Notes under the pieces: model-generated
The model's input: the letters and a program-made list of their open reading frames with translations, nothing else
Told to the model about the DNA's origin: nothing
Database searches by the model: none
Translations under genes and position numbers: made by a program
Assembly: GCA_017508555.1 (NCBI GenBank)
Contig: JAFVYP010000180.1
Coordinates: 1-32,983, forward strand
Length of the DNA: 32,983 nt
DNA from: Lentisphaeria bacterium
GTDB lineage: Bacteria > Verrucomicrobiota > Lentisphaeria > Victivallales > Victivallaceae
Direction of reading: 5' to 3'
In this document: in pieces, positions 346 to 22,813 of the stretch
Position numbering within the stretch: the first letter of the stretch is position 1
How the letters are laid out: each line of letters begins with the position of its first letter

Positions 346-371
346 ATGCCATCCGAAGTTTATACAGCCCC

Positions 372-400
372 TTGACAACGGAAAAAATGTGTGATATATT
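372..400 (+). promoter_or_regulatory. Sigma-70 promoter of the DUF4838 gene
   Basis: TTGACA at 372-377, a 17-bp spacer, then TATATT at 395-400. The expected transcription start is near 407, inside the palindrome at 403-419. The gene starts at 448 with a good ribosome site in between. Confidence 0.85.
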
Positions 401-402
401 AC

Positions 403-419
403 AATATGTTGAACATATT
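403..419. promoter_or_regulatory. Operator palindrome over the start of transcription
   Basis: AATATGTTGAACATATT is a perfect 17-nt palindrome around a central G at 411. The centre is 11 bases after the last base of the -10 box, a position where a bound repressor would block initiation. The second site at 2834-2848 has the same 13-nt core and the same 11-base offset. The odd-length form centred on one base suits a dimeric HTH repressor, but the family cannot be told from the site alone. Confidence 0.75.
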
Positions 420-447
420 TCCACCCCAACATAAGGAGAACAAAAAA

Positions 448-2766
448 ATGAAACGATTTCTTCTTCCAGTGTTTTTGCTGACGGCAAAACTCGTTTCCGG
501 TCTGACAGTTGACAGCGGTATTGCGCTGGTCATTCCGGATAACCCCACAGTCCAGGAAAAATATGCAGCGGGTCAGATGCAGCATTATTTGAGCCGTGTG
601 ATCGGCAAAAATTTTGTCCTTGTTCCTGAAAAGGATCATAAAGGGGGTGCCGCGCTTTATATCGGTTTGACGCGGCGGGCCGCTCAGCAGAAGTTTCCGG
701 CGTTCAAGGTGGAGGAATACCGCATCAAAGCCGCCGGTAAAGATGTCATCATCACCGGAAGTCTCGAACGCGGTGTGCTTTTTGCGGTGTATGAGTTTCT
801 GGAAAAATTTGCCAATGTCCGTTTTTTTGCGCCCGGGTGCGAGTATGTTACCCGGAAAAAAGTTCTGACCATTCCCGATAATACGGATATTTTTTATAAA
901 CCCCTCATCCAGTACCGTTATGTTTACGGCGGTCTGGCCAACCGTCCGGAGACCTTTGCGCGCAAACTGCGCATGACCGGCTGGGGACCGCTTGCCCATC
1001 TGGGCGGATCCGAACGGTACGGCTTTGCCGGACACGGACACTCCCTGGGGATCTATTCCGGAGATTTCCCTCTTGAGATCTCATGGGTCAGCAGCGGCGG
1101 CACCCGCAAGATCGTCAAGAAAAATGATATCGGCGCTATCTGTTACTCTGATCCTGAAGTAATGAAACGCTTTGTGAAAAAGCTCAAGGCCGGTATCGCG
1201 GCCGACAGAAAAGAGGCCGCCAAACGGGGCGTTCCTCCGCCGCGCTTCTATTCCATCACGCAGAATGACGGAGAGGCGGCCTGTTTCTGCAAAAAATGCC
1301 ATGCCTTTTCCCGCAAACACGGTGTTTCCGGACTGCTGATCGACTTCCTCAACCGTCTCTATGACAATGTCAAGGGAGAGTATCCCTATATCAATCTGGT
1401 AACGCTGGCTTATTTTGATTCTCTGGATGCACCCCGGGGCGTTGTGCCCAACAGTCATGTGGTTGTCCGGATATCCACTTATACCAGGGGATTCCACGAT
1501 CATCTGCGTCCGATCAGTTCTCCTGCCAACGTTGAATACCGGAAGATCCTCAACGACTGGCAAAAGTGCGCCAGCGGACGTCTGGGCGTCTGGGATTACT
1601 GGAGATACTGGAACGGACTTATTCCTCCGGCCACCTGCGCCCTCGCTTTGCAGGATATCTGCCGCAAATACCGCGATATGGGTATGAGAGTCGTTTTTGT
1701 CGAATACGAGAACGAACTTGACTGTCTGCTTTCATTCTATGACCTGACTTACTATCTCGGCGCCCGTCTGCTCAATGATCCGGATATGGATGTCCCCCGG
1801 GCCGTCAAAGAGTTCACCGATTTCTATTACGGCAAAGCGGGCGTTTACATGCGCCGGTATCTTGACCTTATCCATGAGGGAATGAACAGAGATGAGAAAC
1901 CCATGGAGCAGGCGCCGATCAAATCCAGTAAGTATCTGGCCGATCCGGAATTCTACCGGCAGGGATTCGATCTGCTTGAAAAGGCCCGCAAGGCCGTCGG
2001 AAGCAATAAAAAGCTCCGGGCACGCGTGGATATCGAAATGGTGATCCTTCAGGCGGCGTATCTCAAAACCTGGGAGGCCCACCGCAACACTCTCAAGCTG
2101 GAAAGAAAAAAGATCCAGCAGGATATCATCGCCACGCTGCCCGGGGTACTGAAGGAATTTTTCTCTCCCGGAGCCCTCAAGACAAAATCTCTCGGTGAAC
2201 TGGTCGCTTTCTATGCGGATACGGTCGTTTACAAACCGGTGAAGGCTCCCCGGAACGTGAAGCCTCTCAAAAACTTCAATACCAAAGCGCCGGGAATACG
2301 CCTGTTTGAGTATGACAAGGTTTACGGACACGGCATGAAGATCTCCGATCCCGATTCGCCTTCCGGCTGGACCAAATCCCATTCGGCTGTCATGCCGCCT
2401 GAAGAGGTGGCCAAGACCCATAAAAAGGGATTTATCTTCGGACTGTATTCAAGTGCTGTCCAGAAGCATCTGATGATCAGCGGCATCTCGCGGCAGAATA
2501 TGGCGCAGGATGAAAAGTATCACTGGTACTATATGGGCAGAACAGTCTTGTATCCCAAACTGCTGCTGTTCATGCACCATACCTGGACCCTTTCAGTGGT
2601 GTTGAACCTCTATATCGACCCCGGGGATCCCGCAAGAGAGTATGACATGTATGCATTCCTCAAATTCCAGGGCCCCGATTATGTCAAAGGATCAAAATCT
2701 CCCGGTGACGTCAGAATTGCCCGTTTTGCCCTGATTCCGGTCAAAAATGCGGAAAAATCAAAATAA
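448..2766 (+). CDS. Secreted DUF4838 protein, glycan-active candidate
   Basis: The protein has 772 residues. The start at 448 is chosen because AAGGAG lies at 433-438 and because the frame then opens with a signal peptide ([18 protein letters not shown], cleaved near residue 18). The longer GTG start at 391 falls upstream of the predicted transcription start and inside the promoter. Residues ~20-140 resemble the alpha/beta domain that precedes the barrel in alpha-glucuronidase-like enzymes ([20 protein letters not shown]). Residues ~150-420 match DUF4838, including the QNDGE stretch at 272-276 and the cluster C279-x-C281-x2-C284, which could bind metal. The C-terminal part (~600-772) looks like a beta-rich domain I cannot name. 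DUF4838 proteins are usually found with glycoside hydrolases, but their reaction is not settled. The protein acts outside the inner membrane and is probably transcribed alone. Confidence 0.85.
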
Positions 2767-2770
2767 AATT

Positions 2771-2796
2771 GAAAATTTCCGGCAAAATTTTCTTTT
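2771..2796 (+). terminator. Weak AT-rich terminator
   Basis: An 8-bp stem (GAAAATTT 2771-2778 with AAATTTTC 2785-2792) is followed directly by TTTT. A competing 7-bp stem (2781-2787 with 2793-2799) overlaps it. It lies between the stop of the DUF4838 gene and the next promoter, so it may separate the two transcripts. The low GC of the stem makes it uncertain. Confidence 0.4.
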
Positions 2797-2801
2797 GCCT
2801 C

Positions 2802-2830
2802 TTGACAAGGAGAGAATTTGCAGGTATAAT
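2802..2830 (+). promoter_or_regulatory. Consensus sigma-70 promoter of the pseudopilin gene
   Basis: TTGACA at 2802-2807, a 17-bp spacer, then TATAAT at 2825-2830: a full match to consensus at both boxes and in spacing. Transcription should begin near 2837, which excludes translation from the TTG at 2769. Confidence 0.9.
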
Positions 2831-2833
2831 TAG

Positions 2834-2848
2834 TTATGTTGAACATAA
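2834..2848. promoter_or_regulatory. Second copy of the operator palindrome
   Basis: TTATGTTGAACATAA is a perfect 15-nt palindrome centred on G2841, 11 bases after the -10 box. It shares TATGTTGAACATA with the site at 403-419 and has the same position relative to the promoter. A strong consensus promoter with a start-site operator predicts tight repression and high induced expression. Confidence 0.75.
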
Positions 2849-2891
2849 AATTTGCCTGCAAGTACCACTAAAAAACCAAAAGGGGGAACCT

Positions 2892-3698
2892 ATGACTTGC
2901 CTAAAAAAACACGATCTGCCGGAAAGAAAAGATGTTGCTTTATCCGCGTACACGCGGATAAAGCCCATGGGCTTTACGCTCATCGAGCTGCTGGTGGTCA
3001 TTGCCATTATTGCCATTCTGGCGGCGATGCTGATGCCCGCCCTTGCCCAGGCAAGAGACCGGGGCAAGGCTGCCAGCTGTCAGAACAATATGAAAACCCT
3101 GGAGTCCTGCAGTCAGCAGTACGGCGATCAGTTCGATGATTATGTTCTGCCCAGCGATCCCAAGTCCATGCCGGGCAAAATCGACCTTTCAAAGATCTTC
3201 GGCACAGTTCCTGCCGCCGGCGGTGTTTACGGCGCCAGCAATGTCCATTCGGCTTTTTTCAATGTTTTCAAATGTTTGAAATATCTTTCAAACTACAATA
3301 CGGCGTCATACTGTCCGAAAGACTCCTCCAAAAGAGATACCTATTGGGGAGCGACCACATACGGGATCGTTTCTGTTGCCGCATATCCCTGGCGCGGTGA
3401 GGGCAGATATTACTGGTGGCGTTACAATAAAGTCCACAATCCTTCCAAAAAGATCCACTTTACCGAGGGACAGAGTCAGACGCCCGGCAAAGGTTACTGC
3501 CGCATCAGAAGTCAGGGTTCCGGCCCCTCCACCGGAGAGGCTGCTCCCTATAACTGGCATGGCAATGAGACCACTGTGGGCTTCATCGACGGTCACGTGG
3601 AATCGATCTACCGTGTTGACTGGACCTACAACAACAGTTTGTGGCATCTTGTCAATGATGAATATATGACCTACGGAAAAACACGCGCCGGATACTGA
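2892..3698 (+). CDS. Pseudopilin with prepilin signal and H-X9-DG motif
   Basis: The protein has 268 residues. ATG 2892 follows AGGGGG at 2881-2886 and lies downstream of the mapped promoter. Residues 1-27 are a long charged leader ending in Gly27. Cleavage before Phe28 gives [16 protein letters not shown], with the conserved Glu at +5 (E32) and a hydrophobic helix typical of type II secretion pseudopilins and type IV pilins. The rest is a Cys-containing globular domain. H223 and D233-G234 form the H-X9-DG motif seen in the large pilin-like families of Planctomycetes and Lentisphaerota. It should be processed by prepilin peptidase and act in the envelope or as a fibre subunit. No assembly ATPase, peptidase or other pilin is encoded nearby, so it must use machinery encoded elsewhere. 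The shared operator ties it to the DUF4838 gene. The 27-residue leader is long and contains two overlapping palindromes at DNA level. Confidence 0.9.
2937..2976. repeat. Two overlapping perfect palindromes inside the pilin leader
   Basis: Hairpin A pairs GCTTTATCCGCG (2937-2948) with CGCGGATAAAGC (2953-2964) around a TACA loop: 12 bp without mismatch. Palindrome B, TAAAGCCCATGGGCTTTA (2959-2976), is perfect over 18 bp. They share 2959-2964, so an mRNA cannot form both at once. They encode residues 16-28 of the leader, ending exactly at the prepilin cleavage site. Confidence 0.85.
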
Positions 3699-3768
3699 TA
3701 AAATTCTTATTCCCTGTCTGCTGAAGAGCTCCTTTAAGGAGGCTCTCAAAGACCCCTTATTGCCTGAA

Positions 3769-3798
3769 ACAGCCCCTCCGAAAAAGCGGAGGGGCTGT
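3769..3798 (+). terminator. Strong hairpin after the pseudopilin gene
   Basis: ACAGCCCCTCCG (3769-3780) pairs perfectly with CGGAGGGGCTGT (3787-3798) around AAAAAG: a 12-bp GC-rich stem. No T-run follows on the plus strand, so it may slow, end or protect the pilin transcript rather than act as a classic intrinsic terminator. It separates the pilin from the large gene run at 3860. Confidence 0.6.
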
Positions 3799-3859
3799 CA
3801 AAAATTGAATGGATATTCTGCAAAGATGTCATACTGAATCATAAAGAAAGGACAGTTTT

Positions 3860-6800
3860 ATGAAACAATACTTCTCTCTCCTTGCCGCTTTGTTTTCGGC
3901 GGCGCTCTGTTCGGGTGCGGAACCCAAACCCATCTGGCAGGGTGATTTTGAAGGCTTCAAAAAATTCAAAGCCCCTTCAAACAGGATCGACTCCTTCACC
4001 ATCAGCAAGGGACGCAAAGGTCTGTTTGTCGGCAGGATCGTTCCCGGTGCGGGCGTCGGCAACTCTGTCGGCGTGTCGAGCATCAAAGAGGGAACATGGA
4101 TCAATAATCTGCCCCTTGAAGGAAAAGAATTTGCCCTTGAAATGAAGTTCAAACTTGTCAAAGAGCTTCACAAAAAGAAATATTCCACTTTGTTTGCCTA
4201 TTCTGCGGATGAAAATTTCCGCAGGCGCATGATCGTCTGGATCCATCCCAGAGGAAACATCCAGGTCCTCTTTGAGATCCTCAATGACAAAAAGAAGGCC
4301 GTCAAATCCTTTGCCATGTCAACTTCTGCTCTCAAATGGCAGACCAATAAGTATTATTCTCTGCGCTTTTCCTGTATTTCCGGCGGCGCGGCGGAGTTGG
4401 AACTGGACGGCAAGACCGTTGCTTCCTGCGAAGAGAACGCCATGAGTCTGGGAGATCTTCACCAGAAAGACGGCAAATATTTCTCACGCATCTATTTTGG
4501 ATACTATCCCTTCTACGGCCCCCGGACCGCTCCCTCATCGCTTCTTCAGGGCTATGTGGATGAAATCAAAATTTACGATAAAGTCGTTCGCAGATCCGCT
4601 GCGGAAAAGGCCGCCGCTGTGGAAAGCAAGGCCGCGCTGCCCCATCTCTGCCTCGACAATACCTGGAGCAGCTCCTTCCTCGTTGCCGATCAGCCGGGCA
4701 AGTTCATGGGAACATTCCAGCGCGCTGAAGAGAAATTCTGGCAGACCGCAGCCAGAGTCCGTGCCAAAATCGAAAAGGACGCTCTGATCGCGGAATTCGA
4801 TTGTCCCGTTCCCGCCGGCATGCGTGTCACCTGTGATCCGAAGTTTTTCTGGTCCAGCGACCGGGTGGAGGTTTTCATCCAGCCTGATCCTGTGGTCAGC
4901 AAATACTATCAGTACGCCGTCAACGCTGCCGGTGAAGGCTATGCCGGTTCCGGTTTGACGCAGAACCGCAACACCCGGGCGCTCTTTTCTGCCAAAACCA
5001 CAGACAAAGGTTTTACGGCCAGGATCGTTATCCCTCTCAAGGAAATAGGTCTTGAAAAAATCAAACCCGGTCAGATGTTCAAAGGCAACTTCATGCGCGG
5101 CGGCAAGACTTGCGGTTCGGGTTCCTTCTGGGCCCCCACCGGAGACAACTGGCATGCCGTTGAAAACTTTGCCCCCATCATCTGCGGTTCTCGCAAAGCC
5201 TATTTTGAAGGAAAAATGGCTGAACTCCTCAAGGAAACTGCCCGGCTCAAACTGACGCCGGCTGTCCGGCAGGGCATGGAGGATCTTAAAAAGCGCATCG
5301 CCTCTTCCGCCGTAAATGCCGCTGCTTTCGTACAGCTTGAAAAACAGTTTGCCGTCATGGAGTTTTCTGTGGCGCAGATCCGTTTTGACGGCATGAAACA
5401 GCTGATCTGGCAGCCCGCCCCCTGGGAAAACAATATGAATATTTCCCGACTGGCAAAACCCGTCAAAACCATCAGGGTTTACATGCCGCGCAATGCCCGC
5501 AGGATGGTTCCCTTTGCCGTCTCCAATCTGGAGCAGTCCCCCTTCCTCGGACAGATGAAGGTTTTCAGAAAATGGCCCTATGAACGGATCACCTATCAGC
5601 ACTTCGGCGATCAGCCCTGGAATGCCTTCCTCAACGGTATCCGTTTTTATGAGGGCCTGCCTACCACGGATGTCAACGGCAAAATGGTCTATGACCCCAT
5701 TGCCCCCTTCCACATGAACACCGTTCTGCGGATACCGCCCCGGACGACCGCGCCTGTCTGGATGGAGATATCCAGCAAGGATCTTGCTCCCGGTAAATAC
5801 ACCGGCAAACTCGTCCTCAAAAACTGCGGCGGCTCAGGCGGCGTGGAGACCGTCGATCTGGAAGTGACCGTTTCCACGACTGATATTGCCGCGTTCCATC
5901 TGGATAATTTGCAGGGAAATACCCTCATGCGCAAAGCATGGCATCATGAAAATTTCCGCAAATTCTTCGTCAAATACAACTACAATTACATCTATTCCCG
6001 CCTGGGCGGAGATGTCAAAGTCTATCTCTCTTACAATCCCTACACCGGCAAATGGAATGTGCCCGATACCATCACCCGGCTCGATGATATGGTCGAAAAG
6101 GCCATTGCAAGCGGATTTGATGTAAAAAAACTGAAGCTCTGCTTCTACCTTTCATGGGAACACAATTTCGGCGGTCTCCCCGATACGCCCGCATGGGAAA
6201 GGGGCATCCGTGCCAGTATCCCCTATTGGCTCGACAGGCTCGAAAAGAAATACGGCATCCCCCACGAACACGTTGTCTTTTATCCTATCGATGAACCCAA
6301 CGGCGATATCAATAATCCCAACACCAGCATGGCAAAGGCTTTGCGCTGGCTCAAACTGTTGCGGCAGGTCACGCCCCGGGCAAAGATCATGATCAATCCC
6401 CTCTACGCCGGCAAATCCCCCGTCTTTGAGATGATGGCTCCTTACTGCGATATTTTTGAGTGCTACCGTCCCGAACTGGACAACACCCCCGGATTCACTC
6501 AGCGTATCCAGAAACTGGGCAAAGAGGTCTGGACCTACAATATCCTCCGCAAACAGCAGAGCCCGGAACTTTACCGCGCTGACTACTGGAAAAACTGCCG
6601 CGACGGTTTCATTCTGACCCAATTCTGGGATCTGGATGACAGCGCCGGCGGCGATACCTTCGATTCAAGCGACGTCACCAATCCCAAAGGCCGCATCCGC
6701 CGCGATGACTATGCCATGGCTTATGTGGACTTCAACTACGGTACCATCATGGCCAGCCGCCGCCTGGAAGCCGCCGCCCGCGGTTTTGATGAGACCCGCG

Positions 6801-7780
6801 TGGCCTGGTACTGCCGCGATCTGCTCAAAAAACTCAAGAAACAGGGCGTCAATGTGAGCGCCTTTGAAAAAGAACTGGCCGATGCCGTTGCCAAAGGCGC
6901 CGCCGGAAGCATGACGGATATGGATGAACAGGCCGATGTCATTCTCCGTCTCTCTGAAAAGATCATCCAGCTCTACGAGTCAAAGAACGGCAGGATCGTT
7001 GTTCCCAAAGCTGCTGTTTCCGGCGCCCCCCGGCGTTTTGCCGATGTGAAAGTCCCCGTACCTGCTGTTGCCGCTCCCCCGGCGGCCAAAGCCGCTCCCA
7101 AAGCGGCCGTTTACGGCGGCATCAACAAGCTGGATCTTGATTTTGAAAAGTATGCCGGACGCGATATCAAAGGCGGATATTTTGACCACCTTGCCGTTGA
7201 CAGCGGTTCCCGTATCGCTTTCTACGGAATGCCTGTCCGGAAACAGGGCGTCGGCAATTCCGTTGCCATCAAGTGCATGAATACCCGCAATCAGCTGGCC
7301 AATCTTGATCTCAACGGCAAAAAAATGTCTCTTGAACTCAAATTCAAACTGGCCAAACCTGTCGGCAAAAACGGTTCCGTCCTCTGCGGTTATGTGGCCT
7401 GCAAGGATGCTTCCCGCCGCATGCTGCTCCGGATCACCCCCAAAGGTCAGCTGGAAGCTGTGTTCAGAGTGATCGATCCCAAAACGAAAAAGATCATCAA
7501 AAATACAACTCTCACCTCTGCTCCCTGCGCGCTCAAGACCGGCGTTTACTATACCGTCCGTCTGGAATGCGTCAGCGCCGGCAGGAGCGAGCTTTTCCTG
7601 GACGGCAAAAGCATCGGCGCGCAGAAAAACGCCATGAGTTTCTATGATCTTGATGTCAAAAGCGCCAAACCCTATAAAGTGCTTTTTCTGGGCTTCTATC
7701 CCTTCTTTATGGACGGCAATGTCTCCCGGCAGACCCTCAACGGTTATATCGACAATATCAAAATAAGTGAGCTTAAATAA
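3860..7780 (+). CDS. Secreted LamG / CBM9-like / GH123-like / LamG protein
   Basis: The protein has 1306 residues with signal peptide MKQYFSLLAALFSAALCSGA. Residues ~27-250 form a LamG-like jelly-roll domain (LDGK, FGYYPF, VDEIKIYD). Residues ~259-440 look like a CBM9-type domain (SSDRVEVFIQPDP, FKGNFM, WAP). A linker follows, then a beta-sandwich (~520-680) and a barrel-like region resembling GH123/DUF4091. Adjacent D811-E812 in YPIDEPNGD correspond to the Asp-Glu pair that GH123 uses for substrate-assisted cleavage of N-acetylgalactosamine; this assignment is inferred from motif and architecture. A Pro/Ala-rich linker (~1064-1086) leads to a second LamG copy (~1088-1306) absent from the two paralogs downstream. 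AAAGAAAGGA upstream supports the start. It opens a long same-strand gene run, but I see only a poor promoter in 3799-3859 (TTGAAT and CATACT, 19 bp apart). The next gene begins 1 base after its stop. Confidence 0.8.
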   Translation: MKQYFSLLAALFSAALCSGAEPKPIWQGDFEGFKKFKAPSNRIDSFTISKGRKGLFVGRIVPGAGVGNSVGVSSIKEGTWINNLPLEGKEFALEMKFKLVKELHKKKYSTLFAYSADENFRRRMIVWIHPRGNIQVLFEILNDKKKAVKSFAMSTSALKWQTNKYYSLRFSCISGGAAELELDGKTVASCEENAMSLGDLHQKDGKYFSRIYFGYYPFYGPRTAPSSLLQGYVDEIKIYDKVVRRSAAEKAAAVESKAALPHLCLDNTWSSSFLVADQPGKFMGTFQRAEEKFWQTAARVRAKIEKDALIAEFDCPVPAGMRVTCDPKFFWSSDRVEVFIQPDPVVSKYYQYAVNAAGEGYAGSGLTQNRNTRALFSAKTTDKGFTARIVIPLKEIGLEKIKPGQMFKGNFMRGGKTCGSGSFWAPTGDNWHAVENFAPIICGSRKAYFEGKMAELLKETARLKLTPAVRQGMEDLKKRIASSAVNAAAFVQLEKQFAVMEFSVAQIRFDGMKQLIWQPAPWENNMNISRLAKPVKTIRVYMPRNARRMVPFAVSNLEQSPFLGQMKVFRKWPYERITYQHFGDQPWNAFLNGIRFYEGLPTTDVNGKMVYDPIAPFHMNTVLRIPPRTTAPVWMEISSKDLAPGKYTGKLVLKNCGGSGGVETVDLEVTVSTTDIAAFHLDNLQGNTLMRKAWHHENFRKFFVKYNYNYIYSRLGGDVKVYLSYNPYTGKWNVPDTITRLDDMVEKAIASGFDVKKLKLCFYLSWEHNFGGLPDTPAWERGIRASIPYWLDRLEKKYGIPHEHVVFYPIDEPNGDINNPNTSMAKALRWLKLLRQVTPRAKIMINPLYAGKSPVFEMMAPYCDIFECYRPELDNTPGFTQRIQKLGKEVWTYNILRKQQSPELYRADYWKNCRDGFILTQFWDLDDSAGGDTFDSSDVTNPKGRIRRDDYAMAYVDFNYGTIMASRRLEAAARGFDETRVAWYCRDLLKKLKKQGVNVSAFEKELADAVAKGAAGSMTDMDEQADVILRLSEKIIQLYESKNGRIVVPKAAVSGAPRRFADVKVPVPAVAAPPAAKAAPKAAVYGGINKLDLDFEKYAGRDIKGGYFDHLAVDSGSRIAFYGMPVRKQGVGNSVAIKCMNTRNQLANLDLNGKKMSLELKFKLAKPVGKNGSVLCGYVACKDASRRMLLRITPKGQLEAVFRVIDPKTKKIIKNTTLTSAPCALKTGVYYTVRLECVSAGRSELFLDGKSIGAQKNAMSFYDLDVKSAKPYKVLFLGFYPFFMDGNVSRQTLNGYIDNIKISELK

Positions 7781-7781
7781 A

Positions 7782-8606
7782 ATGATGAAAAAACTTTTCT
7801 GCTCTTTTCTTCTTGTCTCCGGTGTATTTTGTTCCGCAGCTGAACCCGCCGCTGTTCCGCCGGAACTGGCCAGGATCCGCAGCTATCTCCAAACCAAAGC
7901 CCGGGGACAGGCCCCCTGGACATGGATCTTCTACGGAGACAGCATCACCCACGGCGCCAAACACACCCACGGCTGGCGCTCTTTTCCGGAGATCTTCGCC
8001 GAACGTCTGCGCTATGAGCTGGGCATACGCCTCAATACCGTCATCAACTCCGGTATCAGCGGCAACACCACCGCCAATCTGCTGGATGGCACGCAGTATT
8101 ATCACAGGATCAAAAAGTTTTATCCCTCTGTGGTCATTATTATGATCGGCACCAATGATATCGTCCGGATCAAGGATATCAATGTGTACCGGAAAAATCT
8201 GGAGACCCTCGTTGAAAAGATCCGCAAAGACAAGGCTTATCCTGTTCTGATGACGCTCCCCGGCATCTGGAAAAACACCAAAAGACGGGATTATATCGCC
8301 CGTCTGAAGGGACTTGATGCCTATAACGCCGTTATCCGTGAAACGGCCAAAAAATACAACACCGTCCTCGTGGATAACGCTTCTCGCTGGGAAAAGATCG
8401 CTCCCACCGCCGACAAACAGAAAAAATTTCTGGGTGAAGAACTTCATCCCGGCCCCATGGGACATCTGGAGATCGCAAGGGAGATCTTCCGCGTTTTCGG
8501 TATCGACGATCCCGCCGCTGTCTCCAGCAATCCCGTGGGCAGAGAGTATATGGATCTTGATCTCTATCACAAGACCCAGCAGAAAAAAAAGGCGGCCGGA
8601 AAATAA
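7782..8606 (+). CDS. Secreted SGNH/GDSL-family esterase
   Basis: The protein has 274 residues. ATG 7782 and ATG 7785 are both possible; both lie directly after the previous stop, suggesting translational coupling. The signal peptide is MMKKLFCSFLLVSGVFCSA. The SGNH blocks are in order: block I FYGDSITHG with nucleophile S54, block II NSGISGNTT, block III IGTND with N125, and block V EELHP with H222. Family members usually have Asp three residues before this His; here the position is E219, which may still orient the histidine. These enzymes remove acetyl or other acyl groups from carbohydrates. Its place between GH123-like paralogs suggests that it deacylates the same glycan. The substrate cannot be read from sequence. 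Confidence 0.88.
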   Translation: MMKKLFCSFLLVSGVFCSAAEPAAVPPELARIRSYLQTKARGQAPWTWIFYGDSITHGAKHTHGWRSFPEIFAERLRYELGIRLNTVINSGISGNTTANLLDGTQYYHRIKKFYPSVVIIMIGTNDIVRIKDINVYRKNLETLVEKIRKDKAYPVLMTLPGIWKNTKRRDYIARLKGLDAYNAVIRETAKKYNTVLVDNASRWEKIAPTADKQKKFLGEELHPGPMGHLEIAREIFRVFGIDDPAAVSSNPVGREYMDLDLYHKTQQKKKAAGK

Positions 8607-8620
8607 GAGGCTGTTGACAG

Positions 8621-11600
8621 ATGAAAAAGTTCCTTTGTTCTCTTGCGGCCGCAACAGTTTTTTCTCTTGCGGCCGCAGAAAAGCCTTATCTTTCCTTCGA
8701 TTTTGAAAAATACAACAAACTCAAAGCGCCCTCCTTGCGCGTTGAACGCTTTCAAAATCCGGACAAAGAACGCAGTACTTTTCTGGGAACCATCGTTCCC
8801 CAGGCGGGGGTCAACAACTCCGTCGCGCTGGCGTGTACCGGCAAAGCCGCCTGGTGTTCCAGGCTCCCCATGGATTGGGAAAGCTATACCATCGACCTTG
8901 CTTTCAAGCTCACTAAAGGGATCGACAGCAAAAGGCACTCGGTCCTCTTTGCTTATTCCGCCGATGAAAATTTCACCCGCCGCATGATCGTATGGATCAC
9001 GCCCAAGGGACAGGTGGAGGTTATTTTTCAGATCATGGCGGACAGGAAAAAGATTTTGAAGTCCTGTGAGATCATTTCCCCTGTCATCAAGTGGCAGAAC
9101 AACAGGTTTTATTCCCTGCGCCTGACGGGTGTTTCCGGCGGCAAAATGACCCTCTTCCTGGATGGAAAAGTCATTGCCGAAGGTGAAAAGGCTTTAAGTT
9201 TCAGTGATCTGCAAAAGAAGGGAGAACCGCTTTTTTCTCAACTTTATTTCGGTTACTATCCCTTCCGCGGTCCGCGGAACAAACCCGGAAAAGTCCTCAA
9301 CGGCTTCATGGATGATATCAAACTTTACAACAAAGCTGCCGCTGTTTCTTCTGCGTCAGACGGTGTTTCTTCTGCGGCTTCTGCGCCTGTCTCTGCTGCA
9401 CCTCATCTGCTTCTTGACAACAGCTGGAGCAGTCCCTTTATCGTCGGCGATCTGCCGGGAAAACTGCTGGGGACTTTTGTCCGTGCGGATGAAAAATTCC
9501 ATCAGAATGCCGCCCGTGTCCGCCTCAGGGCCGATCAGAAAAATCTGATCGCAGAATTCGACTGTCCCGTTCCCGCAGGCATGACGGCAGAGAGTATCCC
9601 CAAGCGTATGTGGAGTGGCCGATCCGACCGGGTTGAAATGTTCCTTCAGCCCGATCCCGCAGGCAGCCGTTTTTATCAGTATGCCGCCGCCGTCAACGGC
9701 GAAACTTACGCCGGGATCAATACAACGGCCAATCCCTCATCAAAAGCCAAATTTGCTGTCAAAAAGACCGCCGGAGGATACAGCGTCACCATCACTGTCC
9801 CCTTGCAGGAGCTGGGGATCCGGAAACTTGTTCCCGGAAAAGTCCTCAAAGGCAACTTTATACGCGTGGGCAAAACTGCCGGACGTCATTCTTACTGGGC
9901 GCCCGTCGGCGACACCTACCAGTCCCCGGAAAACTTTGCCGTCATCATCTGCGGTACGCGCAAAGCCTATTTTGAACAGAAATATGCCCTCCTGAAAAAA
10001 GAGTTTTCCACCCTCAAAACCACACCCGCTTTCAATAAAGAGACAGCGGCTGTTGAAAAAATGATTTCAAAAGAGGGCGATGATCCTCAAAAGTTCAATG
10101 CGCTTGACGCCCGTCTGACCGCGCTGGATTTTTCCGTCGCACAGCTGCGTTTCGACGGCGCAAAACAGCTGATCTGGCAGACGGATATGTGGGCCAATAA
10201 TATCAATGTCTCCCGTCTTTCCCGTCCTCTTAAAAGCCTCAAGCTCCGCATGGCCCGCAACAGCAGAAAAACAGTGGGCTTTGTGGTTTCCAATCTGGAA
10301 AATACGCCCTTCCTCGGACAGGTCAAGGTCTTTAAGCACTGGCCCTTTACCCGTCCCCGGAAACAGCAGTTCAGCTACCAGCGCGAATGGGATGGGCTTC
10401 TTGCCAATATCACCATCCATGAGGGGATCGGGACAAAAGATGAGTCCGGCAAAACCCTTTACGATGTGCTTTCTCCTCTGCCCCTCAATACATTGCTGCG
10501 TATCCCGCCCAAAAGCTCTGCCCCCGTCTGGCTGGAGATCTCAAGCAAAGGCCTTGCCCCCGGCAGATACACCGGTTTTGTCGTCCTCAAAAACTGCGGC
10601 GGACAGGGCGGTTTTGAAAGCGTTCAGCTTGACGTGGAGATCTCTCCCGCTGATACGGATGAGGTCCATCTGGATCAGATGGTTTACAACAGCGTTCAGA
10701 GCAAGGCATGGCATCTGGGATCCATCCGCAGATTTTTCCGCAAAAACCACTACAATTATCTGGAACTTATTCCCGGCAACGGACTTTATATCTATTGGAA
10801 AAAAGCTCCCGGCGGCAAACTTATCCCCGGCGACCTCGCTCAGCTGGATCGATTTGTCGATCAGGCCGCATCTGCCGGATACGATATCAAAAAACTCAAG
10901 TTTTTCTTCTGCCTCGGATGGAATTACGGTCTGGGCGGCAGTTATGACAGAAATCCCGAACTCTGGAAAAAGATCATGGCTGCCAGTATCCCCGCCTGGC
11001 TGGATCATCTTGAAAAGAAATACGGTATCCCTCACGAACACATCATCCTCAATCCCGTGGACGAACCCGGCGGCAATGTGGATGACCCCAAATCCAATAA
11101 CGGCAAGGCTTATATCTGGAGCAAATTCATCAAGAAAGTCGCTCCCCGGGCAAAAGTCTTGAACAATCCCCACCGCTCCGGTATGGAGGTTTACCGCCGT
11201 CTGGCTGAATACACGGATATCTTCTGCTTCTACCGCCCGGATTTTGAAAATAAAAAAGACTTTCTCAAATACATGTATTCCCTCTCTCAGCAGGGTAAAG
11301 AGATCTGGACCTACAATATCCTGATGAAAAACACCCATCCGGAAACTTACCGCCTAGACTACTGGCGCAACCGCCGCGACGGCTTCAATGCTGTCACCAC
11401 TTTCTGGGACCTCAACAGTCACGCAGGCGGCGACGGCTTTGATCCCAATGACGTTACCGATCCCAAAAACCGTCGTATCAAACGCACCGATTACGGTATG
11501 GTTTATGCCGACTGCAACTACGGTACGATCCTCGTCAGCCGCCGCTTTGAGGCCGCGCAGCAGGGGTATCAGGATTCCCGTCTCATGGCACTCTGCTGTC

Positions 11601-11776
11601 AGAAGATCGCTTCCCTCAAAAAGAGAGGCACCGATACAAGTCTTTTTGAAAAAGAGCTGAAAGAGGCCATCGAAAAGGGATGCCGCGGCGCCTCCATGGC
11701 CCATATGGATGCCCAGGCGGAGGTCATTCTCCGGCTGGCTGAAAAACTGATAAAACTGGATAATAGTAAAAAATAA
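8621..11776 (+). CDS. Secreted LamG / CBM9-like / GH123-like paralog 2
   Basis: The protein has 1051 residues with signal peptide MKKFLCSLAAATVFSLAAA. The domain order matches the 3860 gene without the C-terminal LamG: LamG ~20-235, CBM9-like ~260-445, beta-sandwich ~520-690, then the GH123/DUF4091-like catalytic region with D814-E815 in NPVDEPGGN. The following segments WTYNIL, DYWRNRRDGFNAVTTFWDL and DPKNRRIKR are conserved among the three paralogs in general form. The signal-peptide DNA contains CTTGCGGCCGCA twice within about 35 bases. It shares long identical DNA tracts with the 11793 gene, for example 86 bases at 10494-10579 against 13660-13745, so the pair duplicated recently or undergoes gene conversion. 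GH123-like hexosaminidase activity is an inference. Confidence 0.8.
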   Translation: MKKFLCSLAAATVFSLAAAEKPYLSFDFEKYNKLKAPSLRVERFQNPDKERSTFLGTIVPQAGVNNSVALACTGKAAWCSRLPMDWESYTIDLAFKLTKGIDSKRHSVLFAYSADENFTRRMIVWITPKGQVEVIFQIMADRKKILKSCEIISPVIKWQNNRFYSLRLTGVSGGKMTLFLDGKVIAEGEKALSFSDLQKKGEPLFSQLYFGYYPFRGPRNKPGKVLNGFMDDIKLYNKAAAVSSASDGVSSAASAPVSAAPHLLLDNSWSSPFIVGDLPGKLLGTFVRADEKFHQNAARVRLRADQKNLIAEFDCPVPAGMTAESIPKRMWSGRSDRVEMFLQPDPAGSRFYQYAAAVNGETYAGINTTANPSSKAKFAVKKTAGGYSVTITVPLQELGIRKLVPGKVLKGNFIRVGKTAGRHSYWAPVGDTYQSPENFAVIICGTRKAYFEQKYALLKKEFSTLKTTPAFNKETAAVEKMISKEGDDPQKFNALDARLTALDFSVAQLRFDGAKQLIWQTDMWANNINVSRLSRPLKSLKLRMARNSRKTVGFVVSNLENTPFLGQVKVFKHWPFTRPRKQQFSYQREWDGLLANITIHEGIGTKDESGKTLYDVLSPLPLNTLLRIPPKSSAPVWLEISSKGLAPGRYTGFVVLKNCGGQGGFESVQLDVEISPADTDEVHLDQMVYNSVQSKAWHLGSIRRFFRKNHYNYLELIPGNGLYIYWKKAPGGKLIPGDLAQLDRFVDQAASAGYDIKKLKFFFCLGWNYGLGGSYDRNPELWKKIMAASIPAWLDHLEKKYGIPHEHIILNPVDEPGGNVDDPKSNNGKAYIWSKFIKKVAPRAKVLNNPHRSGMEVYRRLAEYTDIFCFYRPDFENKKDFLKYMYSLSQQGKEIWTYNILMKNTHPETYRLDYWRNRRDGFNAVTTFWDLNSHAGGDGFDPNDVTDPKNRRIKRTDYGMVYADCNYGTILVSRRFEAAQQGYQDSRLMALCCQKIASLKKRGTDTSLFEKELKEAIEKGCRGASMAHMDAQAEVILRLAEKLIKLDNSKK

Positions 11777-11792
11777 AACAGAGAGCAAAATC

Positions 11793-14700
11793 ATGCTGAA
11801 AAAGTTTCTTCTCACGCTCTGGGGGGCGGCCTCTCTTTCGTCTCTTGCCGCTGAAAAGCCTTATCTTTCCTTCGATTTTGAAAACTTCAGCAAACTCAAA
11901 GCACCCTCTTTCCGTCTGGAACACTTTCAAAATCCGGAAAAAAAACGCAGTACATTCCACGGGACCGTTGTTCCCCAGGCGGGGGTCAACAACTCCATCG
12001 CGCTGGCGTGTACCGGCAAAGCCGCCTGGTACAATCAGCTGCCCATGGATTGGAAAAGTTATACCGTGGATCTTAAATTCAAACTCACAAAAGGCACTGA
12101 TAAAAAGAGACATACGGTCATCTTTGCTTACGCTGCCGATGAAAATTTCACCCGCCGCATGATCGCATGGATCAAACCTAAAGGACAGCTGGAAGTCATG
12201 TTTCAGATCATGGACGGCAAGAAGAAAATTTTGAAGTCCTGTGAGATCATTTCCCCTGTCATCAAGTGGCAGAACAACAAGTTCTATTCCCTGCGCCTGA
12301 CGGGGGCTTCCGGCGGCAAAATGACCCTCTTCCTGGATGGAAAAGTCATTGCCGAAGGCGAAAGGGCTTTGAGTTTCAGCGATCTGCAGAAAGAGGGGGA
12401 AAACTCCTTTTCACGCCTCTATCTCGGCTATTACCCCTTCTACGGTCCCCGGACAAGTCCCTCCAATCTGCTCAACGGTTTTGTGGATGATATCAAACTG
12501 TACGACCACAGCATCGAAAGCTCTCCCGCTGCCCCGGCTGCCGCCTCTGCGGAAACGGCTGCCGCGCCCCATCTGCTCCTTGACAACAGCTGGAGCAGTC
12601 CCTTTATCGTCGGCGATCTGCCGGGAAAACTGCTGGGGACTTTTGTCCGTGCGGATGAGAAATTCCATCAGAATGCCGCCCGCGTCCGTCTCAAGGCCGA
12701 TCAGAAAAATCTGACAGCAGAATTCGACTGTCCCGTTCCCGCAGGCATGACCGCAGAGAGTATCCCCCGCCACATGTGGAGCGACAGATCCGACAGAGTT
12801 GAAATGTTCCTTCAGCCCGATCCGGAAGTCAGCCGTTTTTATCAGTACGCCGCCGCCGTCAACGGCGAAACTTACGCCGGGATCGATCTGCTGGAAAATC
12901 CCAAGTCAAAAGCCAAATTTGCTGTCAAAACAACGGCAAAGGGATACAGCGTCACCATCACGATCCCCCTGAAAGAGCTGGGGATCGGAAAACTTGTTCC
13001 CGGAAAAGTCCTCAAAGGCAACTTTATGCGCGTAGGCAAAACCGCCGGACGTTACACCTATTGGGCCCCCACAGGTGACCACTTCCAGTCCCCGGAAAAC
13101 TTTTCCATCATCATCTGCGGTACGCGCAAAGCCTATTTTGAACAGAAATATGCTCTCCTGAAAAAAGAGTTTTCCTCCCTCAAAACCACACCCGCTTTCA
13201 ATAAAGAGGTTGCGGCTGTCGAAGAAATGATTTCAAAAGAGGGCAGCGATCCTCAAAAGTTCAATGCGCTTGAAAGCCGTCTGGCGGCTCTGGATTACTC
13301 CGTCGCACAGCTGCGTCTCGACGGCGCAAAACAGCTGATCTGGCAGACGGATATGTGGGCCAATAATATCAATGTCTCCCGTCTTTCCCGTCCCCTCAAA
13401 AATCTTAAACTCCGTATGCCCCGCAACGGCAGGACAACTGTCGGTTTCGTCGTTTCCAATCTGGAAAACACCCCCTTCACCGGTCAGATCAAGGTTTTCA
13501 AACACTGGCCCTTCAAGCGCCCGACATGGCAGCACTTCGGTTTTCAGACGGATTGGGATGATTTTCTCAGTAATATCACCCTTTCCGAAGGCGTCGGTAC
13601 AAAAGATGAGTCCGGGCGCACGATTTATGATGCCCTCTCTCCCCTGCCCCTCAATACACTGCTGCGTATCCCGCCCAAAAGCTCTGCCCCCGTCTGGCTG
13701 GAGATCTCAAGCAAAGGCCTTGCCCCCGGCAGATACACCGGTTTTATCGTCCTCAAAAACTGCGGCGGGCAGGGTGGTTTTGAAAGCGTTCGGCTTGATG
13801 TGGAGATCTCCCCCGTCGATCTGGCAGAGGTCCATGTGGATCAGATGGCCTACAACAGCGTCGTCCGGCGCGCCTGGCACCATGAAAATTTCCGCAAATT
13901 CTTCAAAAAATACAACTACGACTATCTGGAACTTGTCCCCGGCCAGGGCCTGAGCATCTACTGGAAAAAGGGACCGGGAAATACCCTCATCCCCGCCAAA
14001 ATGGACGCTCTGGATCAATATATCGACCAGACAAAGGCGGCCGGTTTCGATATGAAACAGCTCAAGATCTTTTTCTGTCTCGGATGGAATTTCGGTCTGG
14101 GCGGCAGTTATGACAAAGATCCCCGGCTCTGGGAAAAAATCATGGCTGCCAGTATCCCCGCCTGGCTGGATCACCTTGAAAAGAAATACGGTATCCCCCA
14201 CGAAAACGTCATTCTCAATCCCGTGGATGAACCCGGCGGCAATGTGGATGATCCCAAAAGCTCCAACGGCAAGGCTTATATCTGGAGCAAATTCATCAAG
14301 AAAGTCGCTCCCCGGGCAAAAGTCATGAACAACCCCCACCGCTCCGGTATGGAGGTTTACCGCCGTCTGGCTGAATACACGGATATCTTCTGCTTCTACC
14401 GCCCGGATTTTGAAAATAAAAAAGATGTCCTCAAATACATGTATTCTCTCACCCTGAAAGGCAAAAAAATCTGGACTTACAATATCCTGATGAAAAATGC
14501 GCACGCCGAAGTGTACCGTCTGGACTACTGGCGCAACCGCCGCGACGGCTTCAACGCGGTCACCACTTTCTGGGACTTTGATGACCACGCAGGCGGCGAC
14601 GGCTTCGACTCAGGAGACGTCACCAATCCCCGGGGCCGTATCCGCCGGACAGATTACGGTGTCGCTTATGTGGATTTCAATTACGGCAATCTTCTGGTCA

Positions 14701-14939
14701 GCCGCCGCTTCTGGGGCATCCGCAAGGGCTATCAGGATACATGTCTCATGGAGCTTTGCCGCCAGAGGATCGCTTCCCTCAAAAAGAGAGGCACCGATAC
14801 AAGGCTTTTTGAAAAAGAGTTGAAAGAGGCCATCGAAAAGGGATGCAGCGGCGCCTCCATGGCCCATATGGATGCCCAGGCGGAGGTCATTCTCCGGCTG
14901 GCTGAAAAACTCGTCAAACTGGATAACGGCAAAAAGTAA
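11793..14939 (+). CDS. Secreted LamG / CBM9-like / GH123-like paralog 3
   Basis: The protein has 1048 residues with signal peptide MLKKFLLTLWGAASLSSLAA and the architecture of paralog 2. The putative catalytic pair is D812-E813 (NPVDEPGGN). It begins 16 bases after the previous stop. Most of it is closest to paralog 2, but some blocks follow paralog 1 instead: the segment around residues 690-710 (WHHENFRKFFKKYNYDYL), the DVTNPRGRIRR stretch, and GPRTSPSNLLNGFVD in the LamG domain. This patchwork suggests recombination among the three copies. The sugar-binding loops differ most near the linker after LamG, where it has an Ala/Pro-rich spacer. Together the three copies may cut related linkages or different positions of one polymer. 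Confidence 0.8.
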   Translation: MLKKFLLTLWGAASLSSLAAEKPYLSFDFENFSKLKAPSFRLEHFQNPEKKRSTFHGTVVPQAGVNNSIALACTGKAAWYNQLPMDWKSYTVDLKFKLTKGTDKKRHTVIFAYAADENFTRRMIAWIKPKGQLEVMFQIMDGKKKILKSCEIISPVIKWQNNKFYSLRLTGASGGKMTLFLDGKVIAEGERALSFSDLQKEGENSFSRLYLGYYPFYGPRTSPSNLLNGFVDDIKLYDHSIESSPAAPAAASAETAAAPHLLLDNSWSSPFIVGDLPGKLLGTFVRADEKFHQNAARVRLKADQKNLTAEFDCPVPAGMTAESIPRHMWSDRSDRVEMFLQPDPEVSRFYQYAAAVNGETYAGIDLLENPKSKAKFAVKTTAKGYSVTITIPLKELGIGKLVPGKVLKGNFMRVGKTAGRYTYWAPTGDHFQSPENFSIIICGTRKAYFEQKYALLKKEFSSLKTTPAFNKEVAAVEEMISKEGSDPQKFNALESRLAALDYSVAQLRLDGAKQLIWQTDMWANNINVSRLSRPLKNLKLRMPRNGRTTVGFVVSNLENTPFTGQIKVFKHWPFKRPTWQHFGFQTDWDDFLSNITLSEGVGTKDESGRTIYDALSPLPLNTLLRIPPKSSAPVWLEISSKGLAPGRYTGFIVLKNCGGQGGFESVRLDVEISPVDLAEVHVDQMAYNSVVRRAWHHENFRKFFKKYNYDYLELVPGQGLSIYWKKGPGNTLIPAKMDALDQYIDQTKAAGFDMKQLKIFFCLGWNFGLGGSYDKDPRLWEKIMAASIPAWLDHLEKKYGIPHENVILNPVDEPGGNVDDPKSSNGKAYIWSKFIKKVAPRAKVMNNPHRSGMEVYRRLAEYTDIFCFYRPDFENKKDVLKYMYSLTLKGKKIWTYNILMKNAHAEVYRLDYWRNRRDGFNAVTTFWDFDDHAGGDGFDSGDVTNPRGRIRRTDYGVAYVDFNYGNLLVSRRFWGIRKGYQDTCLMELCRQRIASLKKRGTDTRLFEKELKEAIEKGCSGASMAHMDAQAEVILRLAEKLVKLDNGKK

Positions 14940-14998: not shown

Positions 14999-15898
14999 AT
15001 GAATAAAAAAGTTATCAGCGCCACCGTCACTCCCCTTATGGAAGATGGCAAACTTGACCGCAACGGTCTCAAAAACATCTTTGAACGCAATATGCGTCAC
15101 GGACTGGACGGCGTTTTTCTTTTCGGCTCCATGGGCGAATGGGGCAGCTTCAGCAGCTCTTTCAAAGAGGAGACTGTGGAATATGCCTCCGAACTCATCG
15201 GAAACAAAATGGAATTGATGGTCGGTATCAATGCCACCAGTCTCCCCCTTTCCCTTGAGCTGATGAAAAGCTATGAGAAATATGATTTCGGCGCCTATGT
15301 CTATATGCCGCCTGCCGCCACCAGCCGGTTGAATCCGGTCAGATCCGTCCTCAAGGTGCTGGATACGGCTGACCGTCCCGTCTATCTCTATCACTGCCCG
15401 CCCAACAACAACATCAATTTCACGCTGGATGAGTTTGAATTGATGATGAAACATCCCAATCTCAAGGGTATCAAAAACTCCTCCTCCAACATGTGGCTGC
15501 GCCGGGAACTCCTGCTGCTGCGCGCCGAAAAGGGCCTCAAAACCCTCTTCTTTGAAGGTCAGGAATGGGCCGCTGATGAAGCCCTCATCGCCGGATATGA
15601 CGGTATGATCTGCGGCATGGGCGCCCTCTGCTCCAAAATGATGAAGAAACTGGCTGCCTGCGTGGATAAAGGTGATATCGCCGGTGCTGTCGCCGCTCAG
15701 AACGATATGATCAGAGTTTTCCACGGCGTTTACGGCATCGACATCAAAAACTGCTGGAACGGACAGAAATACGCGCTGGTCAAACTGGGATTGATCTCCA
15801 CTCCCTTCACCATCGCTCAGGAAATGGATAATCTCACCGATGATGTGAAGAAAAGAGTTGAAAACTGTCTGGCCGAGTTCAAAGAGGAGCTGGATTGA
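14999..15898 (+). CDS. DapA/NanA-type class I aldolase (lyase)
   Basis: The protein has 299 residues with no signal peptide, so it is cytoplasmic. It is a full-length member of the dihydrodipicolinate synthase / N-acetylneuraminate lyase family. It has the N-terminal SATVTPL strand, FGSMGEW in place of the usual GTTGE/GSTGE loop, Y131 in YLYHCP as the proton-relay tyrosine, and K159 in LKGIKNSS as the Schiff-base lysine. The family makes or cleaves pyruvate-containing aldols such as 2-keto-3-deoxy acids and sialic acids. The altered GxxGE loop and the position after secreted glycosidases argue for a catabolic sugar-acid lyase rather than lysine biosynthesis. AAAGGAT upstream is the ribosome site. 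The downstream SDR overlaps its stop. Confidence 0.85.
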   Translation: MNKKVISATVTPLMEDGKLDRNGLKNIFERNMRHGLDGVFLFGSMGEWGSFSSSFKEETVEYASELIGNKMELMVGINATSLPLSLELMKSYEKYDFGAYVYMPPAATSRLNPVRSVLKVLDTADRPVYLYHCPPNNNINFTLDEFELMMKHPNLKGIKNSSSNMWLRRELLLLRAEKGLKTLFFEGQEWAADEALIAGYDGMICGMGALCSKMMKKLAACVDKGDIAGAVAAQNDMIRVFHGVYGIDIKNCWNGQKYALVKLGLISTPFTIAQEMDNLTDDVKKRVENCLAEFKEELD

Positions 15899-16707
15899 TC
15901 CAAATGAATGTCCTTGACAGTTTTTCTTGCAAGGGGAAAGTGGCTCTGGTGACCGGCGGTGCCGGTCATCAGGGCGGTTTCGGATCCCAGATATCCGAGG
16001 CGCTTTACGAAGCCGGAGCCACGGTTTATACAGCGTCCCGCAATGTTGAAAAATTGGCCGCTTTTACGGCACAATATCCCGGCATGAAGTTTGTTGAACT
16101 GGATCTGGCCGATGAAGGCTCCATTGCCCGATGTATCAGGCAAATCATTTCACAGGAGGGAAAACTGGATATTCTTGTCAACAATGCTGTTCTGCGAGTC
16201 CCCGGCGGCGCGTGGGATAATCCAATGGACTTTTTTGACAAAAGCATGCATACCAACGCTTCCGGCCTTTTTCTCATTACCCGGCTGGCTGCGGAAAATA
16301 TGATGAAAAACCGTTCCGGTTCCATCATCAATATCGCAAGCTATATGGGGATGCTGGGCCTGGATCCTGCCAATTACAAAAATACCGGGATGCAGACTGA
16401 CGGCGATCATTTCCCTTCACCCATCTATCATTACGAAAAAGGCGGCATGATCAATTTCACCCGCTGGGCCGCAAGTGTGCTGGGCAAGTACAATATCCGC
16501 GTCAACTCTTTGAGTCCCACAGGGTTCGATGCCTCCTGGCAGGATAACCCTTCGGAATTTACCCGCAATCACGCGCAGGCGACCATGCTGGGCAGACTGT
16601 GCAATGCCTCTGACCTTAAAGGCGGGATCGTCTATCTGGCTTCAGAGGCCTCCAGTTTTGTCACAGGAACAAATCTGGTCATCGACGGAGGATATTCGGC
16701 AAAATGA
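15895..16707 (+). CDS. SDR oxidoreductase with extended S-to-Y loop
   Basis: The protein has 270 residues from TTG 15895, which overlaps the previous TGA and lies 5 bases after GAGGAG. ATG 15904 (267 residues) is the alternative but has 14 bases of spacing. It is a classical short-chain dehydrogenase: TGGAGHQGGFG dinucleotide loop (20-30), NNA at 96-98, catalytic S149, and Y178-x3-K182. Ser and Tyr are separated by 29 residues rather than about 13. I recall this longer loop from SDRs in nonulosonate and surface-sugar clusters, which fits a large sugar substrate. It probably reduces or oxidises a keto-sugar intermediate in the NAD(P) pool. It is coupled to the aldolase upstream and the aldo/keto reductase downstream (ATGA overlap), so the three likely form one pathway. 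Confidence 0.85.
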   Translation: MIQMNVLDSFSCKGKVALVTGGAGHQGGFGSQISEALYEAGATVYTASRNVEKLAAFTAQYPGMKFVELDLADEGSIARCIRQIISQEGKLDILVNNAVLRVPGGAWDNPMDFFDKSMHTNASGLFLITRLAAENMMKNRSGSIINIASYMGMLGLDPANYKNTGMQTDGDHFPSPIYHYEKGGMINFTRWAASVLGKYNIRVNSLSPTGFDASWQDNPSEFTRNHAQATMLGRLCNASDLKGGIVYLASEASSFVTGTNLVIDGGYSAK

Positions 16708-17573
16708 GCAGCCAGTTTTCTCCTTTGATGCTGGGAACAGTTCAGTTCGGCATGGATTACGGCGTGGCCAATGTCTCCGGCAAGCCCTCTTTTGAGACCG
16801 TCAAAGCCATTTTGAAGGAGGCTTATGACAACGGTATATGCGCTCTGGATACAGCACCGGAATACGGCGACAGTGAAGAGGTCATCGGACGCGCCCTCAA
16901 AGAACTGGGCCTCTCTGACCGTTTTGCCGTCGTCACCAAGATCCCGTCTCTTCCCGAAGGAGCGGAGCCGGAAGCGTTTATGGAAAAATCGCTTCTCAAC
17001 TCGCTCAAACGGCTGAATATTTCCTGTGCTGCCGCCGTCCTGCTCCATACGGAAAATGACTGCATCCACCTGGAGCCCCTCAAAAAAATGCGGGATAAAG
17101 GATTGACGGAACGGGCGGGCATATCCCTCAATACCCTGCAGTTCAAGGATGCCGGAGAGGAGGCCGACTGCCTTCAGATCCCCTGCAGTCTGCTGGATCA
17201 CCGCTTCGATCACTGTTTCGGCAGGGGGGATAGACTCTGTTTTATCCGCGGCGCCTATTTGCAGGGCATGCTGCTGATGCCGGAGGAAAAGATCCCCTTC
17301 CCGGAGATCCGCGAAAAAAGGAGGCTTCTGGAAGCGCTGGGTATCCCCATGGCGGAGCTGGCTCTGCGCTATCTGGCGGCCAAAAAGGCCCCGAAATGCA
17401 TCCTGACAGGCGTGGAGACCCTGGAGCAGCTGCGGGAAAACATCCGTCTGGCACAGCTGCCCCCTTTGAGTCAGGAGGAAATCGCGGCCGTTGAAAAAAT
17501 CGTTCTGCCCCCGCTGGATGAGGCGCTGGTCAGCCCGTGGATGTGGAACAGACGAAAAGGAGTTGAAAAATGA
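16704..17573 (+). CDS. Aldo/keto reductase
   Basis: The protein has 289 residues with ATG overlapping the SDR stop. The AKR catalytic tetrad is complete: D49, Y54, K79 and H115, with the LGTVQFGMDYGVAN N-terminus and a C-terminal ILTGVETLEQL cofactor segment. It uses NAD(P)H to reduce a carbonyl or the reverse. Members with this N-terminus are, from memory, common in sugar-modification and nonulosonate clusters. The stop overlaps the ATG of the next gene, so the aldolase-SDR-AKR-small protein genes are translationally coupled. It is shorter than typical 310-330-residue AKRs, mainly in the loop after H115, which may open the active site for a specific substrate. Confidence 0.88.
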   Translation: MSSQFSPLMLGTVQFGMDYGVANVSGKPSFETVKAILKEAYDNGICALDTAPEYGDSEEVIGRALKELGLSDRFAVVTKIPSLPEGAEPEAFMEKSLLNSLKRLNISCAAAVLLHTENDCIHLEPLKKMRDKGLTERAGISLNTLQFKDAGEEADCLQIPCSLLDHRFDHCFGRGDRLCFIRGAYLQGMLLMPEEKIPFPEIREKRRLLEALGIPMAELALRYLAAKKAPKCILTGVETLEQLRENIRLAQLPPLSQEEIAAVEKIVLPPLDEALVSPWMWNRRKGVEK

Positions 17574-22791: not shown

Positions 22792-22813
22792 TTGACAGGA
22801 AAGGATCATTGCA

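Follow-up and report, generated by a model that had tools for sequence, protein, structure and literature searches.

A start-site palindrome shared by a DUF4838 gene and a pseudopilin-led operon of a Lentisphaeria bacterium is a probable operator of a FadR-subfamily repressor

Two sigma70-type promoters carry the same palindrome at the predicted start of transcription

The window, i.e., the whole stretch of 32,983 nucleotides that was analysed, is contig C120 of the host assembly G000, the MAG of a Lentisphaeria gut bacterium, of 2.46 Mb in 229 contigs and 77% complete. Two forward-strand promoters are its best sigma70-type matches within positions 301-8000. Promoter 1 (372..400) consists of TTGACA at 372-377, a 17-nt spacer and TATATT at 395-400, which amounts to a match of 11/12, while promoter 2 (2802..2830), with TTGACA at 2802-2807, a 17-nt spacer and TATAAT at 2825-2830, reaches 12/12. 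After a gap of 4 nt, each -10 box is followed by an exact match to the strandless palindrome TATGTTGAACATA, at 405..417 (predicted operator 1) and 2835..2847 (predicted operator 2). At site 1 the full palindrome covers 17 bp (403-419, AATATGTTGAACATATT), at site 2 it covers 15 bp (2834-2848, TTATGTTGAACATAA); both have an unpaired central base, and at both promoters the centre lies 11 nt past the last -10 base. If transcription starts about 7 nt past the -10 box, the palindrome would span approximately -2 to +11.

A sequence-only reading of this DNA had described both promoters and the identically placed palindrome, had held the symmetry and the equal offset to be beyond chance, and had seen the site at no other start in the window. 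These points stood: the coordinates were confirmed, only 0.0007 exact copies of the 13-mer are expected in the window from its composition, the geometry recurs in other species (below), and a whole-window search gave no third perfect copy of TATGTTGAACATA. The flanks and spacers of the two promoters are dissimilar. Just 5' of promoter 1, at 36-371, we also noticed three copies of a repeat of approximately 100 nt (CGGCCTCTTTCGCCACAGTAACTACCGCTAAAGCC...), spaced by 111 and 125 nt, the core of which also occurs elsewhere in the assembly, twice in contig C213 and in contigs C38 and C163.

The pseudopilin heads an operon of enzymes and sugar-acid catabolism

Promoter 1 precedes the gene of a 772-aa DUF4838 protein (448..2766; PF16126, E 1.5e-35) with a signal-peptide-like N-terminus, presumably a glycan-active protein. 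Like all the genes described in this section, it lies on the forward strand. Promoter 2 precedes a pseudopilin gene (2892..3698), the product of which carries the prepilin-type N-terminal methylation motif (PF07963, N_methyl, E 9e-6; TIGR02532 above cut-off); its likely start is the ATG at 2892, which has a ribosome-binding site. This is the first gene of an operon of about ten. The gap to the next gene contains a strong 12-bp hairpin with no T-run (3769..3798, forward strand; the 91-nt fold has -32.8 kcal/mol and a z of -4.4), which may raise expression of the pilin over that of the enzymes.

The operon continues with a 1306-aa protein that is GH123-N-like below cut-off (3860..7780), an SGNH/GDSL esterase (7767..8606; PF13472, E 8e-29), a 1051-aa protein (8621..11776; 48% identical to the 1306-aa protein, structure model of low confidence, pLDDT 40) and a 1048-aa protein (11793..14939; 80% identical to the 1051-aa one). 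The next genes encode an aldolase of an uncharacterised subfamily within the DHDPS/NAL superfamily (14999..15898; PF00701, E 7e-28), a gluconate-5-dehydrogenase-like SDR dehydrogenase (15895..16707), an aldo/keto reductase (AKR; 16704..17573), a conserved 161-aa protein (17570..18055), a 148-aa protein with a weak ATC_hydrolase match (18076..18522) and a conserved 496-aa protein at the probable operon end (19033..20523). The three large proteins encoded within 3860-14939, which are paralogs at 48-80% identity, are almost blank in Pfam save for the weak GH123-N match, and judging by their sequences they are possibly a new enzyme family related to GH123. Further downstream, at 21256-25012, two adjoining secretin-domain proteins are encoded, followed by a MarR-type gene (25013-25561), without this operator.

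The site is rare in the host assembly and lies ahead of genes

Genome-wide statistics were obtained by pattern searches. The palindrome TATGTTNAACATA was found at four places in the assembly, in comparison to none for the reversed control and approximately 0.1 expected from composition. These places precede the DUF4838 gene, the pseudopilin gene, a ceramidase-like gene (contig C191), where the site overlaps the -10 box and not the start, and a BNR (sialidase-like) gene (contig C218), where it lies between this gene and a divergent GntR/FCD regulator gene. None of the four is inside a gene with a believable start; overlaps with ORFs arise solely from upstream-extended ORFs, e.g., from a TTG at 2769. 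There are 54 ORFs with pilin-like N-methylation motifs in the 2.46 Mb, and the window pseudopilin is the only one of them with a perfect site ahead of it.

When one mismatch to ATGTTNAACAT was allowed, 70 matches were obtained vs. 31 for the control, and those of the loose matches that we examined were mostly coding noise and were rejected. Two more exact ATGTTNAACAT places (L005 and L008) are inside genes and were left out of the site count; perfect sites in distant members of the order (L022-L025) appear unrelated.

The sequence-only reading had predicted many genomic hits ahead of sugar-active genes and one ahead of a repressor gene. The site is indeed rare, promoter-bound and ahead of sugar-active genes, but with a count of four the word "many" does not hold. 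The predicted copy ahead of a regulator gene was found, since the C218 copy adjoins the divergent GntR/FCD gene. Nor is the perfect site as frequent in coding DNA as at promoters: all four assembly sites are ahead of genes, and the control gave none. Further sites or regulators may be missing from G000 because the assembly is incomplete.

A GntR/FCD regulator is encoded beside one of the sites

The regulator gene (G000:C218:2735-3421) encodes a protein with a GntR winged-helix domain (PF00392, E 1.9e-15) and an FCD effector domain (PF07729, E 1e-8), both above cut-off. A structure model (pLDDT 89) likewise shows a GntR winged helix and an FCD domain, and its structural neighbours in the PDB are FCD regulators, including NanR. 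The histidines of the putative metal site (H158, H199 and H221) are invariant in 34 relatives. An FCD search of G000 gave no second FCD protein. The best NCBIfam model for the regulator is NanR, matched over the full length but at 66 bits vs. a cut-off of 260. Relatives of the regulator are encoded in Lentisphaeria MAGs from goat rumen, sheep colon and roe deer cecum.

Site and regulator occur together across species

In a genus-wide search (presence defined by E below 1e-30), the regulator was found in 12 of 34 genomes. Most regulator orthologs have TATGTNNNACATA with 0-1 mismatch upstream of the gene or of the operon containing it. Of the 12 regulator-bearing genomes, 9 have the stringent form WATATGTNNNACATAW, vs. 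1 of the 22 that lack the regulator (Fisher p = 3.7e-5). In regulator-less genomes, matches to TATGTNNNACATA were mostly coding or unrelated (L084, L086, L095; LemA in G049) and were not accepted as sites. The upstream site is conserved in most Lentisphaeria orthologs as well as in several Bacteroidota, in which regulator homologs of approximately 30% identity keep the site beside their gene; upstream of the regulator genes in L119, L120, L130, L135 and L140 we found no recognisable site.

The consensus of 29 aligned sites is AATATGTTnAACATATT, with a variable centre and with A at -5 in 58/58 half-sites. Published operators of the FadR subfamily have GT and AC placed 3 nt apart (PMC4494728), and across the 29 aligned sites TATGTNNNACATA has this GT-3 nt-AC core, which fits that rule.

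We also computed the geometry of the sites in all species. Among 31 site-gene pairs, some of which are ahead of orthologous genes and thus not independent, the centre lies exactly 11 nt past the -10 box in 12 and 9-12 nt past it in 15, in comparison to 1.5% of random anchors in the same regions. A few sites, e.g., those of the ceramidase-like gene and of the G014 regulator, overlap the -10 box rather than the start. Ahead of the G004 pseudopilin operon, two operator copies lie 27 bp apart (L113, 8370-8409), an arrangement that suggests cooperative binding.

Operon genes and the regulator are neighbours in other genomes

In G005, the cluster of regulator, BNR and FAD-oxidoreductase genes directly adjoins orthologs of the window genes for the 496-aa protein (88% identity), the 161-aa protein, the AKR (84%) and the SDR (87%), the range for the four being 68-88%; the family of the 161-aa protein is found near the operator or the regulator in seven other genomes. 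Orthologs of the window aldolase are immediately 3' of the operator in G044 and adjoin the regulator in G014, and in G015 and G047 they are part of BNR-aldolase-FAD operons headed by the operator. Operator-led operons in which the regulator is followed by a pseudopilin were found in G020, G045, G015 and G047, while in G004 two operators are followed by a pseudopilin, a GH123-like enzyme, a GHL10-like protein and an aldolase. SIG94 (L125) has, one after the other, the operator, the regulator, a DUF1559-type pseudopilin and DUF4838, therefore joint control of DUF4838 and a pseudopilin extends beyond the window.

The claim that the DUF4838 protein and a pilin are switched together as a regulon thus gains from the recurring synteny of operator, regulator, pseudopilin and DUF4838 or enzymes. 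What has to be revised is the picture of the pilin as an isolated surface gene, as it heads the operon described above. Autoregulation is less certain in G000 and G005 than in G045, G020 and G044, because in the former two the regulator gene is beyond the divergent site.

Proposed mechanism and its alternatives

We consider it very probable that TATGTTNAACATA serves a FadR-subfamily repressor as its operator, and that this repressor governs a single glycan and sugar-acid regulon that includes the pseudopilin. We infer that a dimer of the C218 FadR-subfamily (GntR-FCD) protein binds TATGTTNAACATA (wider consensus AATATGTNNNACATATT). At both sigma70 promoters of the window the bound dimer would lie across the predicted start and block RNA polymerase, because the palindrome spans that position. 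The repressor would be released by a sugar-acid inducer, probably a sialic acid or a 2-keto-3-deoxy acid related to it. Once it is released, the following would be expressed together as one regulon: the DUF4838 protein, which is secreted; the operon headed by the pseudopilin, with its large GH123-like proteins, SGNH esterase, DHDPS-family aldolase, SDR, AKR and small conserved proteins; the BNR and FAD-oxidoreductase genes next to that of the regulator; and the ceramidase-like gene. The pilin would then serve the same glycan.

That the site belongs instead to a global regulator of the Crp-like type or to some other dimeric factor, e.g., the MarR-type protein of the window (25013-25561), with the proximity of the GntR gene being incidental, seems very improbable. 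The half-site is common to the Crp-type motif of Bacteroides, TATGTTnTAnAACATA (PMC3878776), but that motif has 4 central bases and ours has 1, across genomes the presence of the site follows that of the GntR/FCD gene, and four sites in 2.46 Mb are too few for a global regulator; on account of the spacing and the co-occurrence with the GntR gene, we dropped the Crp-like reading. It is very improbable that the regulator activates its targets, or that the site is dual-acting, as the start-spanning position and the near-consensus -35 and -10 boxes suit repression, even though there are activators among the FCD regulators and a few sites overlap other promoter elements. If the predicted starts hold, the site is mostly transcribed, and the palindrome could be a hairpin at the RNA 5' end that stabilises the mRNA. 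We give this little credence: the letters themselves are conserved (the invariant A at -5), the centre is variable, compensatory changes are absent, both G000 and G005 have a copy that is flanked by divergent genes, and at some places the palindrome overlaps the -10 box. Chance, or recent duplication of one promoter, is scarcely credible. Both promoters have TTGACA and A/T-rich boxes in common, but their flanks and spacers differ, the expected copy number in the window is far below one (see above), and the same geometry recurs in other species.

The alternative of most weight, possible but in our opinion rather doubtful, keeps the regulator and the operator and sees in them a canonical sialic acid regulon of the NanR type, induced by N-acetylneuraminate. 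NanR is the best NCBIfam model of the regulator over its full length, and in relatives the genes 3' of the site encode sialidase-like BNR proteins, a SASA esterase and an NAL-superfamily aldolase. Moreover, in L144 (a Bacteroidia MAG) an AGE above cut-off, an SSF-mutarotase fusion, an NAL-like lyase and a GntR/FCD gene surround two copies of the site. However, the NanR score of the regulator is far below its cut-off, and the E. coli NanR site consists of GGTATA direct repeats and is no palindrome (PMC8012715); the site here is a palindrome, which the nan locus of L144 shares. In the window aldolase and its orthologs the catalytic Lys and Tyr are retained, but the residues of the sialate pocket are missing: in nine Lentisphaeria orthologs QEW and GMGAL occupy the positions of YDE and GSTYN, and the subfamily has a pocket of its own (GSMGEWGSF, GQEW, GMGALCSK), conserved in at least nine Lentisphaeria. 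In G000 (77% complete) neither NanE nor AGE was found, and UxaC is near one site in G044. An outright sialic acid regulon was dropped because of the aldolase pocket. For the FadR-subfamily repressor that we favour, the candidate inducer is thus a sialic acid or a keto-deoxy sugar acid related to it, left this broad because the sialate pocket is absent, the NanR score is below cut-off, NanE/AGE were not found and UxaC is nearby. In relatives, a GH20 protein is beside one site and GH123-like proteins are within the operons. The two copies in L144 lie at 3914-3926 and 4869-4881, in a sialic acid locus with a GntR/FCD regulator, whereas the NanR of Bacteroides is a ROK protein.

Comparison with known systems

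The kind of switch is already known, i.e., a FadR-subfamily operator at the start site and its regulon. This regulon is new, and so are its occurrence in Lentisphaeria and the link of a catabolic regulator with a pseudopilin and DUF4838. A survey of FadR-type factors listed 0 from Bacteroidetes and none from Lentisphaerota (PMC4494728). The system resembles those of LldR, PdhR, GlcC, ExuR and DgoR in its A/T-rich palindrome, where 3 nt separate GT from AC (PMC4494728), in the GntR winged helix with FCD and the regulator-adjacent site, and in serving sugar-acid or carboxylate catabolism. It differs in the outer bases, ATGT/ACAT here vs. TKGT/ACMA in FadR-subfamily operators (PMC4494728), and in targets that include a pseudopilin and DUF4838. 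With the E. coli NanR sialoregulon (PMC8012715) it shares an FCD regulator, an operator downstream of the polymerase-binding site, and sialidase-like and NAL-superfamily targets; however, the palindrome and the aldolase pocket differ, and the canonical nan gene set was not found here. The half-site letters TATGTT/AACATA are common to the Crp-like sugar regulon of Bacteroides (PMC3878776), which has a longer centre (4 nt, here 1), a regulator of another family and many operons, in comparison to four sites here.

By analogy, the polysaccharide-utilisation loci of Bacteroidota with SusC/SusD appear to be similar substrate-specific units of surface protein, enzymes and regulator. Here a pseudopilin is found in the place of SusC/SusD, and membership in that class is not claimed. 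In Planctomycetes, members of the same superphylum, pili-like fibres were reported with uptake of dextran, a macromolecule, with no pilin gene tied to them (PMC5394234); this fits a pilin in a glycan regulon.

DUF4838 is named in a single paper of the literature searched, and Lentisphaeria genomes contain dozens of pseudopilins without an assigned use. The shared operator gives a handle on both, as it ties one pseudopilin and one DUF4838 protein to a defined catabolic regulon with a specific regulator and predicts the co-induced genes and the class of the inducing ligand; the motif can be searched for throughout the phylum and also in Bacteroidota. We tentatively suggest, extrapolating from one regulon, that Lentisphaeria may have pilus-based glycan loci in which a dedicated pseudopilin, under the sugar-acid repressor that also governs the enzymes, replaces SusC/SusD as the substrate-specific component at the surface, each of the dozens of pseudopilins of the genome serving one substrate. 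An own pseudopilin for each glycan locus fits the occurrence of the site at 1 of 54 pilin-like ORFs.
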